Position numbers and translations under genes: made by a program
The notes under the pieces: generated by a model
What the model was told of the DNA's origin: nothing
Databases searched by the model: none
Seen by the model: only the letters and a program-made list of their open reading frames with translations
Shown here: piece by piece, positions 36,931 through 42,544 of the stretch
How the letters are laid out: the number at the start of each line of letters is the position of its first letter
Position numbering within the stretch: the first letter of the stretch is position 1
NCBI GenBank assembly: GCA_027491195.1
Contig: JAIXWQ010000012.1
Location: 186,001-250,000, forward strand
Direction: 5' to 3'
Origin: Cytophagaceae bacterium
Lineage (GTDB): Bacteria > Bacteroidota > Bacteroidia > Cytophagales > Spirosomataceae
DNA: 64,000 nt

Positions 36931-37047
36931 GATTTATAAAGAAGAAGGGAGAGACTAGGCTCAATGAACTTCTGGCAACCCGTCCGCGAAAGCAGACCCC
37001 GGTGCTAATTCCTACCCCAGGCGGTGCCTGTTTAGGGAAATATAAAC
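36931..37047 (+). ncRNA. SAM-I (S-box type) riboswitch
   Basis: The core of the S-adenosylmethionine aptamer is readable: AGACTAGGCTCAATGAAC, TGGCAACC and GGTGCTAATTCC in the right order and spacing. TTTATA (36933-36938) pairs with TATAAA (37041-37046) as the closing P1 stem. P1 ends only about 11 nt before the metX ATG, with no T-run terminator between. Control is therefore probably at translation initiation or transcript stability. Confidence 0.93.
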
Positions 37048-37057
37048 CATTTTGTGC

Positions 37058-40909: not shown

Positions 40910-41737
40910 ATGGAAACTCCCGTTAAAGAAAAAGAGGACTTTAGAAATTACGATCAAGGTGAAATCACCGCTGCCGTAAAAGAACACTACCGCAAAATGC
41001 GCTCTCGCCAAACATACGACTATGTTCAGCGCATGAAAGCAAAATACCTCACTTTCGAGCGTCCTATGGACCTTTGGGATATGATGGAGCGCCTAAACGT
41101 CCTGGTTGATGTTTCCGATCCTGACCTAAATCTCCCTAACATCATTCACTTGTTGCAATCTGCCGAAGGCATGCGCGCAGACAATCGCCCAGACTGGATG
41201 CAACTAGTGGGCCTAATTCACGACCTGGGGAAAGCCATGTACCTATTCGGATCTGACGAAGACGGAACTTCGCAAGCAGAACAATGGGGTTTAGTGGGCG
41301 ACGTTTTCGTCGTAGGTTGCAAATTACCTGACTCTTGCGTTTACCCAGAGTTCAATGCCTTAAACCCTGACATGCAGGACCCACGCTACAATACCGAATT
41401 AGGTATTTACGAAGCGGGTTGCGGTTTAGACAATATCCACCTAGCCTGGGGACACGACGAATATTTATATCAAGTACTAAAGAATCACAAGGATAATCAA
41501 ATCCCAGAAGCAGGAATGGCCATGATCCGTTACCATTCTTTCTACCCATGGCATTCCGGCGGAAGCTACAAAGCTTTATTATGCGATAAAGACGCACAAT
41601 ACTTAGAATGGATTCGCGATTTCAATCAGTATGATTTATATACCAAATCTCCGGTTGTTCCTAATTACGAGGAGTTGAAGGAGTATTATAAGCCGATAGC
41701 GGAGAAATATCTTGGTAAAGGCCCTATTTATTGGTAG
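40910..41737 (+). CDS. Myo-inositol oxygenase (MIOX)
   Basis: The protein has 275 residues, close to the length of the eukaryotic enzyme. It belongs to the HD-fold di-iron oxygenases (PF05153). Probable iron ligands are His80, His104-Asp105 (GLIHDLGKAM), His182 (AWGHDEYLYQ), His209 (MIRYHSFYPWH) and Asp242 (FNQYDLYTK). The substrate-binding signatures GGSYKAL and NPDMQDPRYNT are present. The enzyme converts myo-inositol and O2 to D-glucuronate. No inositol transporter or glucuronate pathway gene is adjacent. The TAG stop codon is the first three bases of a long hairpin. Confidence 0.95.
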   Translation: METPVKEKEDFRNYDQGEITAAVKEHYRKMRSRQTYDYVQRMKAKYLTFERPMDLWDMMERLNVLVDVSDPDLNLPNIIHLLQSAEGMRADNRPDWMQLVGLIHDLGKAMYLFGSDEDGTSQAEQWGLVGDVFVVGCKLPDSCVYPEFNALNPDMQDPRYNTELGIYEAGCGLDNIHLAWGHDEYLYQVLKNHKDNQIPEAGMAMIRYHSFYPWHSGGSYKALLCDKDAQYLEWIRDFNQYDLYTKSPVVPNYEELKEYYKPIAEKYLGKGPIYW

Positions 41738-41800
41738 TTTGAAATAGTCTACTAAAAAACGGCGCGAGCACATGTTTTCTGCGTAGACTATTTCAAACTA
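41735..41800 (+). repeat. Long hairpin 1 with conserved 13-nt loop
   Basis: A perfect 18-bp inverted repeat (left arm TAGTTTGAAATAGTCTAC, right arm 41783-41800) encloses an inner AAAAC/GTTTT stem and the loop GGCGCGAGCACAT (41761-41773). The left arm begins with the TAG stop codon of the inositol oxygenase gene. There is no T-run after it, so it is not a standard terminator. The loop sequence recurs in two further hairpins with unrelated stems. Confidence 0.9.
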
Positions 41801-41848
41801 TCCAATACAATCAGGTCTCTTTGCCTCGATTCTGTTTACTGTATTAAT

Positions 41849-41930
41849 TAAAATGCCCCTAGAAAATGGGGTAAAAAACAAAATGCCCCTTGAAAATGGC
41901 GCGAGCACATATTTTCTACGGGGCATTTTA
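41849..41930 (+). repeat. Long hairpin 2 with conserved 13-nt loop and duplicated left arm
   Basis: The loop GGCGCGAGCACAT (41898-41910) is closed by ATTTTCTACGGGGCATTTTA (41911-41930). That arm can pair with two left arms: an adjacent one (41880-41897, AAAATGCCCC plus TTGAAAAT) and a more distant, slightly better one (41849-41867, TAAAATGCCCCTAGAAAAT), with one bulged base. AAAATGCCCC is thus present twice on the left. It lies in non-coding DNA on the plus strand. Confidence 0.88.
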
Positions 41931-41949
41931 GTTTTATCCTTTTTTCAGA

Positions 41950-42018
41950 GATAATTTTTCTTCTCCCCGCTACAAAACATGTGCTCGCGCCGTTTTAAGC
42001 GGGGAGAAGAAAATTATC
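41950..42018 (-). repeat. Long hairpin 3 with conserved 13-nt loop
   Basis: Read on the minus strand, a 21-bp stem with one bulge (42018-41998 with 41971-41950) encloses AAAAC/GTTTT and the loop GGCGCGAGCACAT (41991-41979). Its first arm starts inside the TGA stop codon of the NTF2-like gene. Orientation therefore follows the gene it trails, as for hairpin 1 on the other strand. Confidence 0.9.
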
Positions 42019-42544
42019 ACCATCCATCATCCGCCTTCGGCTTCACCACCGCCTTCTTCACAGGAGCCGCAGCTTTAGCTGGAGTAGAAGTCTTTCCGCT
42101 TACCGCTTTAGCCCCCACACCACTCGCCACATTCACGTCCAAAGCAACGCGGCTGTAGACGCGGCAAACGATTTTCCAATCGTCATTGATTTTAACTAGG
42201 CTTAATAGGTCGATGTATTTGAAATCGTCGAATTTGAATTCTACGGTTGCTACGGCAGAAGTTCCTGCGTAGGAATAATTCACTAGGTTTCCAGTCGCTT
42301 TTGCGCCACCTGCAGGCATCCCAGTGATGAATTTACGTAATGGGGTGTCTACTAATTTTCCTGTAGAGGCATTCAGATTTCGTAGAAGGGCGTTACTCGC
42401 AAAGGCACGGCCTAAACTAGCGGTGTCACCTTTCGTGAAACCCTCCGTGTAAGCAGAAATGCTGGATTTAATTCCTTCGTCCTCTGATTGGGCGAATGCG
42501 GAGTAGCCCATTAGGCAGCATAAGGCAAAAAGTACATTTTTCAT
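42017..42544 (-). CDS. Secreted NTF2-like protein (putative lumazine-binding type)
   Basis: The protein has 175 residues. A signal peptide ends at SAFAQ. The mature domain (about 22-135) has the SnoaL/lumazine-binding-2 pattern: IKSSISAYTEGFTKGDTASL, a middle strand region and LVKINDDWKIVCRVYSR. Such cone-shaped folds bind small molecules or are enzymes, and the role here is unknown. The last 35 residues are a low-complexity Ala/Pro/Lys tail (TPAKAAAPVKKAVVKPKA). It follows the serine hydrolase gene by 11 nt and may be co-transcribed. Hairpin 3 begins at its stop codon. Confidence 0.78.
   Translation of the reverse strand: MKNVLFALCCLMGYSAFAQSEDEGIKSSISAYTEGFTKGDTASLGRAFASNALLRNLNASTGKLVDTPLRKFITGMPAGGAKATGNLVNYSYAGTSAVATVEFKFDDFKYIDLLSLVKINDDWKIVCRVYSRVALDVNVASGVGAKAVSGKTSTPAKAAAPVKKAVVKPKADDGW

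Follow-up and report, generated by a model that had tools for sequence, protein, structure and literature searches.

Three long hairpins that occupy the space between two convergent genes in the window, i.e. the 64-kb stretch of bacterial DNA analysed here, are one site of a wider family whose members carry a constant apical module on an outer stem of site-specific sequence and lie at unlinked loci, and which is a lineage-specific, gene-3'-end family of the Aquirufa antheringensis branch, a group of freshwater bacteria. Our reading, to which we give an even chance of being correct, is that fold-back template switching creates or renews the arms of these 3'-end hairpins under an apex that is conserved. 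Compensatory changes are usually taken as proof of selection on RNA structure; if our reading is true, covariation alone can mark a mutational product, and the family offers a compact natural system for telling a mutational explanation, hairpin-primed template switching, apart from selection, since at some sites protein-coding sequence occupies one arm and thereby fixes the direction of copying.

The three hairpins, with H2 in the middle, and the genes that flank them are arranged as follows.

40910..41737, plus strand: myo-inositol oxygenase gene (MIOX, PF05153), upstream of H1
41735..41800, plus strand: hairpin H1, with an 18-bp perfect outer stem, an internal loop, the inner helix AAAAC/GTTTT and the apex GGCGCGAGCACAT
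41850..41872, plus strand: relic of an H2-type left arm, AAAATGCCCCTAGAAAATGGGG, recognised by eye and read as debris of array turnover
41874..41935, plus strand: hairpin H2, with CCCC/GGGG in the outer stem and the core TTGAAAAT-GGCGCGAGCACAT-ATTTTCTAC
41950..42018, minus strand: hairpin H3, with CTCCCCGC/GCGGGGAG in the stem and the core TTAAAAC-GGCGCGAGCACAT-GTTTTGTA
42017..42544, minus strand: putative lumazine-binding-like protein gene (PF12893), upstream of H3 in its own sense

The 13-mer GGCGCGAGCACAT, on which the initial annotation centred, is present exactly at all three places given there (41761-41773 and 41898-41910 on the plus strand, 41979-41991 on the minus strand), with no fourth exact copy in the window, where the four matches at up to 2 mismatches compare with a mean of 0.77 and a maximum of 3 in 100 shuffles. 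The same three copies, all at the MIOX locus, are the only exact ones in the whole 2.49-Mb genome (reversed control 0); the 27 extra places found genome-wide at 2 mismatches amount to background (28 for the reversed control), and the longest gap-free stem enclosing them measures 2-5 bp in 26 of the 27, the single place with an 8-bp stem (L028) lying inside an ORF. Gap-free stems at the three exact copies are 18, 10 and 16 bp long, and RNA folding of the H1, H2 and H3 stretches gave -27.4, -23.5 and -39.5 kcal/mol (z of -6.6, -5.5 and -8.5), with none of 200 shuffles equally stable. H1 begins its stem on the TAG stop codon of the MIOX gene (41735-41737), and H2 is alone in the window in having a T-rich end to its right arm. 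H3 is oriented in the sense of the minus-strand gene, whose stop codon (42017-42019) is in the stem only via a one-base bulge: the gap-free part (41956-42013) ends 3 nt short, and the stem extends to 41950-42018 with that bulge. The 13-mer does sit at the tip of each hairpin, as had been claimed, but it is not a bare loop, since in the predicted fold it pairs internally as a mini-hairpin of 2 bp, GC-GCGA-GC, carrying a bulge of 3 nt (ACA); below it, AAAAY/RTTTT forms an inner helix that an asymmetric internal loop separates from the outer stem. The further claim that only the loop and the ability to pair are conserved holds insofar as the apex and its surroundings are constant and the outer stems differ yet pair, and fails insofar as the constancy extends past the loop to about 30 nt. 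Elsewhere in the window, a scan with Rfam 15 returned, at gathering score, no family match for the hairpins and a SAM riboswitch as its sole match (36931-37048, plus strand), directly 5' of an ORF. This ORF resembles a homoserine acetyltransferase gene.

Comparison with relatives shifts attention from the 13-mer to its setting. The exact 13-mer is present in 18 of 150 genomes of the bacterial family, and all 19 places outside the window's genome were folded; the expectation that its occurrences would prove to be hairpin apices is borne out by the three here and by two at the same locus elsewhere (L031 in G099 and L033 in G122), but 17 of the 19 outside places have no long hairpin by eye, and dispersal of the 13-mer itself was rejected. 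Nor is the loop invariant, as had been proposed, because it reads GGCGCAAGCACAT in sister genomes and has other sequences at other loci; in G099, H1 has the loop GGCGCAAGCACAT, and 7 of its 18 base pairs carry two-sided changes while no pair carries a one-sided change. The core AAAAYGGCGCRAGCACATRTTTT, at up to 3 mismatches, has 25 places in 8 of the 38 genomes of the genus, 23 of them on the MIOX contig and the other two (G170:C17) being a second allele of the same locus, as some assemblies are mixtures; in named genomes the core pattern was found in six stretches, one from Aquirufa antheringensis 30S-ANTBAC and five from MAG contigs (Cytophagaceae and, once, Spirosoma fluviale). Counting additional loop variants, nine of the ten alleles read yield 27 copies. 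The apex is perfect in 16 of 21 intact hairpins versus 1 of 5 broken ones (p = 0.034), a sorting made by eye that excludes one broken copy with another loop (otherwise 1 of 6).

The window aligns with G099 as one piece; its alignment with an 80-kb stretch of G122 is colinear but interrupted at the hairpin region. In G122 and G137 a glyoxalase-like gene (a Pfam call made on the G122 copy), absent from the window's genome, lies between the MIOX-proximal hairpin and the counterpart of H2; because this gene precedes H2 in both genomes, H2 may have originated as its 3' hairpin. In other sister genomes H1 or H3 is replaced, by eye, by a differently tipped hairpin with orphan arms left behind, and orphan arms resembling the 41850..41872 relic also occur there. 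Among 21 loci from the rest of the genus, 13 have one ordinary short-loop hairpin (by eye), three (G147, G159 and G141) have ACGTCTAA-type arrays, four have different neighbour genes and one runs off its contig. As separate observations at this locus, the MIOX intergenic region of three other genus genomes (L063, L064, L073) is full of ACGTCTAACGTCC-type arrays that could self-pair over long distances, and 4 of the 38 genomes (L111-L114 in G152, G122, G155 and G170) have a second hairpin family with the apex AAAATGTTATTACATAAATATTTTT and at least two different stems.

Away from the MIOX locus, covariance model R1 (E<=0.01) found further copies in 9 of the 38 genus genomes and in none of the rest; model R2, built from 46 aligned matches of which some are two strands of one site, gave at the same threshold 123 rows in 10 of the 38 and none in the rest, some sites being counted on both strands, and as about 145 first-look candidates were scored per genome in either search, diverged copies may have escaped. 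GGCGCRAGCACAT forms a local subfamily, and AAAATTGTGCTGCGCAATAATTTT is the commoner core, with 37 occurrences at up to 3 mismatches in four clade genomes; among the other 146 genomes of the bacterial family, three have one match each, all at 3 mismatches (control 0). Variants of AAAATTGTGCTGCGCAATAATTTT carry paired changes within the core (AAAATC...GATTTT; GCGC...GCGA for GTGC...GCAA), and a GNRA-like tetraloop is not a general feature, other subfamilies carrying other apices. A scan for the design in three colinear stretches of 390-400 kb gave, at a stricter threshold, 5, 8 and 6 hits (reversed control 0, 0 and 0), and in five stretches at a looser threshold 7, 8, 7, 0 and 7 (controls 1, 1, 0, 0 and 0), these looser lists also containing ordinary A/T-flanked terminators. 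Ten genomes carry the family, with 11-13 sites per genome in the three closely examined.

Those three genomes (G000, which is that of the window, G099 and G122) supplied the 36 sites, i.e. 42 R2 rows minus 6 second-strand duplicates, whose relation to genes we analysed using longest open frames rather than curated genes. A same-strand gene ends at most 400 nt upstream at 33 of the 36, which is nearly automatic in convergent regions. The left arm lies within 10 nt of, or over, a same-sense stop codon at 23 of 36 sites versus 1 of 36 for the antisense counterpart (p = 3e-6, indicative only, as sites in three related genomes are non-independent; this holds for the p values below as well), and in that single case the right arm lies near an opposite 77-aa ORF. 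At 32 of 36 sites the ORF that follows lies on the other strand, compared, under different ORF length cut-offs, with 284 convergent pairs among 1648 adjacent pairs in sampled stretches (about 48% of the window's genome). Facing hairpin pairs, each in the sense of its own gene, occur at three loci (MIOX; G099 C1 at ~40 kb; G000 C6 at ~200 kb), and orientation therefore follows the gene and not the replication fork. The genes that precede hairpins include proB, guaA, infB and prfA by NCBIfam name, together with nuoJ and RNase R, whose NCBIfam families were reached below equivalog cut-offs; these six being unrelated housekeeping genes, a regulon was rejected. A further observation is that 8 of 36 stems are followed by TCTGA within 16 nt, versus 0 of 36 at nt 25-40; the motif may belong to the element.

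Many stems run into the gene. Among the 33 with a same-sense gene, 18 take in at least two stop bases and 11 reach into codons, the gene end within the stem measuring up to 17 nt, stop included; since the stem overlaps the gene end, the 3' arm at such sites mirrors that end. Stems over a stop are commoner here than among ordinary stop-proximal hairpins (18 of 33 versus 27 of 121, p = 9e-4), although 7 of the 18 include just 2-3 stop bases; stems holding at least 6 nt of gene end number 7 of 33 versus 10 of 121 (p = 0.055), and 7 of 33 hold at least 7 nt. Counted with the stop, the mirrored end is 15 nt without mismatch at proB, 17 nt with 2 mismatches at nuoJ and 7-13 nt at five others; at prfA it is 7 nt and at infB 9 nt. 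The far arm is more likely the copy, because the last codons are fixed by the protein. Genome-wide, 10 of 1651 genes have, at most 200 nt downstream, a reverse-complement copy of 12 nt or more from their last 30 coding nt, against 2 for same-strand, 1 for reversed, 0 for complemented and 0 for distant coding controls. This excess is limited to at least 12 nt (at least 10 nt: 18 reverse-complement versus 22 same-strand; at least 8 nt: no excess), some of the ten cases lie in A/T-rich repeat arrays, and the longest mirrors (18-21 nt) are snap-back palindromes that do not belong to the constant-core family.

The terminator of the histidine-kinase gene beside prfA, an ordinary terminator rather than a member of the constant-core family, allows an arm to be compared with gene ends of relatives. 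In G122, 19 nt mirror the gene's own end, compared with 12 nt for the gene end of G155 and at most 6 nt for those of five others; this mirror is in essence a 12-nt insertion copying the gene's own last codons between bases shared with G137 and G170, and is known solely from comparison with other species. In G000, 11 nt mirror its own gene end and 6 nt that of each other genome, and in the other five of the seven clade genomes in which the gene end was found the mirror is 5-7 nt. In G122 and G000 the arm thus corresponds to its own gene end and not to those of relatives, as expected of a template-switch (quasipalindrome) product, and we take this terminator as sequence evidence suggesting that such a mutational process operates in the lineage. 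The original idea that an arm is copied from the neighbouring DNA is favoured by both the mirrored gene ends and this tracking of own codons.

The covariation of the stems is strong. Across 16 distinct intact copies, in which 90.2% of cells pair, two-sided changes affect every one of the 14 outer pairs; the covariation score of 0.586 compares with a shuffle mean of 0.176 (0 of 500 shuffles as high; slid controls 0.14-0.23), the bare count of two-sided pairs, 16, is matched by 6 of 500 shuffles, and as the aligned copies share descent these shuffle results are not probabilities. In the inner helix 4 of 7 pairs are invariant across the same copies and the asymmetric internal loop is retained. 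Of 444 standard pairs counted over 13 outer columns of the 36 sites, 2 are G.U, versus 32 of 321 in 15 tRNAs, a comparison in which only ARAGORN-drawn pairs were counted for the tRNAs and in which the covariance model favours paired stems; the value is less extreme in alignment A1, drawn from one locus (8 of 195 outer standard pairs). In a gapped alignment two-sided stem-pair changes number 24 of 159, 14 of 96 and 25 of 133, where four-fold sites differ by 0.494, 0.495 and 0.375. Stem pairs are not faster than four-fold sites and their rates are compatible with slow compensatory selection; the notion that stems change as fast as neutral sites, suggested by ungapped arms, was withdrawn after this alignment.

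No description of this hairpin family was found in the literature searched (for Aquirufa, among the matches listed), but the design, for which the initial annotation knew of no described family, has precedents. Iron-responsive elements have, like the present hairpins, a loop and a bulge that are conserved while the stem is free in sequence; they are eukaryotic and protein-bound, whereas we know of no such protein for the present family. REP/BIME elements, which are associated with RAYT transposases, are short extragenic palindromes at gene 3' ends, sometimes in inverted pairs. They share that location with our hairpins but conserve their stems, whereas those of the family are site-specific; since PF01797 (RAYT, Y1 HUH) has no match in the 10 family-carrying genomes (it has one in 12 of the 38 in the genus) and stems are not conserved, we rejected a REP/RAYT identity. 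Intrinsic terminators are similar in forming a hairpin right after the stop codon, in convergent regions and with A-tract/T-tract arms; they differ in that the family has a constant apex, a stem that enters the ORF at some sites and rarely the U-tract expected directly after an intrinsic terminator, TTTT lying within 16 nt after the stem at 4 of 36 sites as compared with 3 of 36 at nt 25-40. At the infB, proB, nuoJ and prfA/kinase loci an ordinary terminator-like hairpin also lies further downstream (by eye), which makes a terminator role of the family unnecessary there. In E. coli, inverted repeats reaching into the ORF are reported to be scarce upstream of stop codons (PMC6060812). The other precedent is the DGR target hairpin, with a free stem sequence and a sequence-dependent loop of consensus GRNA (Guo et al. 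2011, PMC3240598). It too is a DNA hairpin near a stop codon whose stem is free and whose loop sequence matters, but it has a 7-10 bp GC-rich stem and a 4-nt loop, lies downstream of a variable repeat and requires the DGR reverse transcriptase (PMC3240598). In the window's genome PF00078 has one match, L289 (G000:C4:3957-4445), in a frame of more than 1000 aa. This frame looks to us like a retrotransposon Pol, and perhaps represents eukaryotic contamination of the bin; with no bacterial-looking reverse transcriptase in that genome, a DGR or retron was rejected.

Closest in mechanism is the proposal that template-switch mutations create and maintain hairpins (Monttinen and Loytynoja 2022, PMC8794818). 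That model likewise predicts perfect reverse-complement stems, simultaneous compensatory changes, a retained loop and loop-primed intrastrand switches, and its authors term their own strongest evidence for stem maintenance circumstantial; it concerns RNA genes, whereas here we deal with a dispersed family at bacterial gene ends that has a constant apical module and, at some sites, a protein-coding arm that is copied. We propose that each hairpin has two parts. One is an apical module, inherited and ~24-34 nt long, which comprises an A-tract/T-tract helix, a 3'-side bulge and a mini-hairpin apex; the other is an outer stem that would be whatever DNA separates the module from the gene plus its reverse complement on the far side, at some sites taking in the last codons together with the stop. 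The module may fold in the nascent strand during replication or repair, its 3' side priming on its 5' side, whereupon the polymerase would copy the 5' arm, i.e. the gene end, into the 3' arm and return to its normal template; such intrastrand template switching would make and repair the stem and leave the apex untouched. Intact stop-proximal hairpins would be kept through a role at the RNA level, where they may form a barrier at the 3' end or assist termination between convergent genes; purifying selection presumably acts on the apex. What we propose is hence a mixture of an inherited, selected apex, copied arms and shuffled alleles. Templated copying would be the reason why gene ends appear in the stem, why arms track their own codons and why G.U pairs are nearly absent. 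By itself it leaves unexplained the kept internal loop, which remains mismatched although simple fold-back from the inner helix should erase it, as well as the sense orientation and the conserved apex; these three point to RNA-level selection or to an apex that nucleates the fold. A bolder version, which we consider rather unlikely, would be a self-perpetuating DNA hairpin. Its apical module, once next to a gene, would cause the replication machinery to put the gene end into the opposite arm, so that a perfect stem specific to the site is built and repaired with no need for selection on base pairs; the module would also copy itself into local arrays and to other gene ends in one lineage.

Ordinary RNA selection, acting on hairpins of 3' UTRs or terminators whose conserved apex binds a protein or RNA and whose stems change by compensatory point mutations only, would account for the strong covariation, the prevalence of the sense orientation at stops (23 versus 1), an apex conserved across genomes whose four-fold sites differ by 0.375-0.495 and stem pairs slower than those sites; we nevertheless hold it to be unlikely, because G.U pairs are nearly missing (2 of 444), at some sites the paired stem extends as far as 17 nt into the gene without known need, own codons have been inserted in G122 and extended in G000, and the six checked genes, unrelated housekeeping genes, suggest no regulon. 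Homologous recombination might instead swap whole hairpin alleles between species with no special mutation mechanism: H1 is nearly identical in G000 and G161, yet their MIOX four-fold sites differ by 0.56, G161 and G152 are close in MIOX (0.15) but have unrelated MIOX-proximal hairpins, and prfA-side alleles are intact in one species and relics in another (by eye). As a sufficient explanation such exchange is improbable, given that it explains how perfect stems copying the gene end beside them were redistributed but not how they arose, and that stems differ between loci; it probably acts together with fold-back copying.

The core is repeated at unlinked sites, and arrays contain relics and duplications, both of which would suit a mobile palindromic element (REP/MITE-like) that inserts in or beside existing terminators, so that the stem would be the old terminator and the core the element. 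This we regard as very improbable, for no Y1/RAYT transposase (PF01797) matched in the 10 family-carrying genomes, some of them incomplete assemblies, the stem of the MIOX-side hairpin differs in genus genomes without the family (by eye), insertion leaves the mirrored gene ends unexplained, and the two exact core patterns matched 0 stretches among viral contigs, on which ground a viral origin was rejected as well. Finally, convergent regions in G000 (C10 and C6), G099 (C1) and G122 (C1) hold arrays of AAAGCATAAAGCACAAAGAATAAAG, GGTGAATGGTAAATG and GTAGAGATAATAGAG units, often as inverted arms flanking a terminator, which possibly arise from the same fold-back process combined with slippage.
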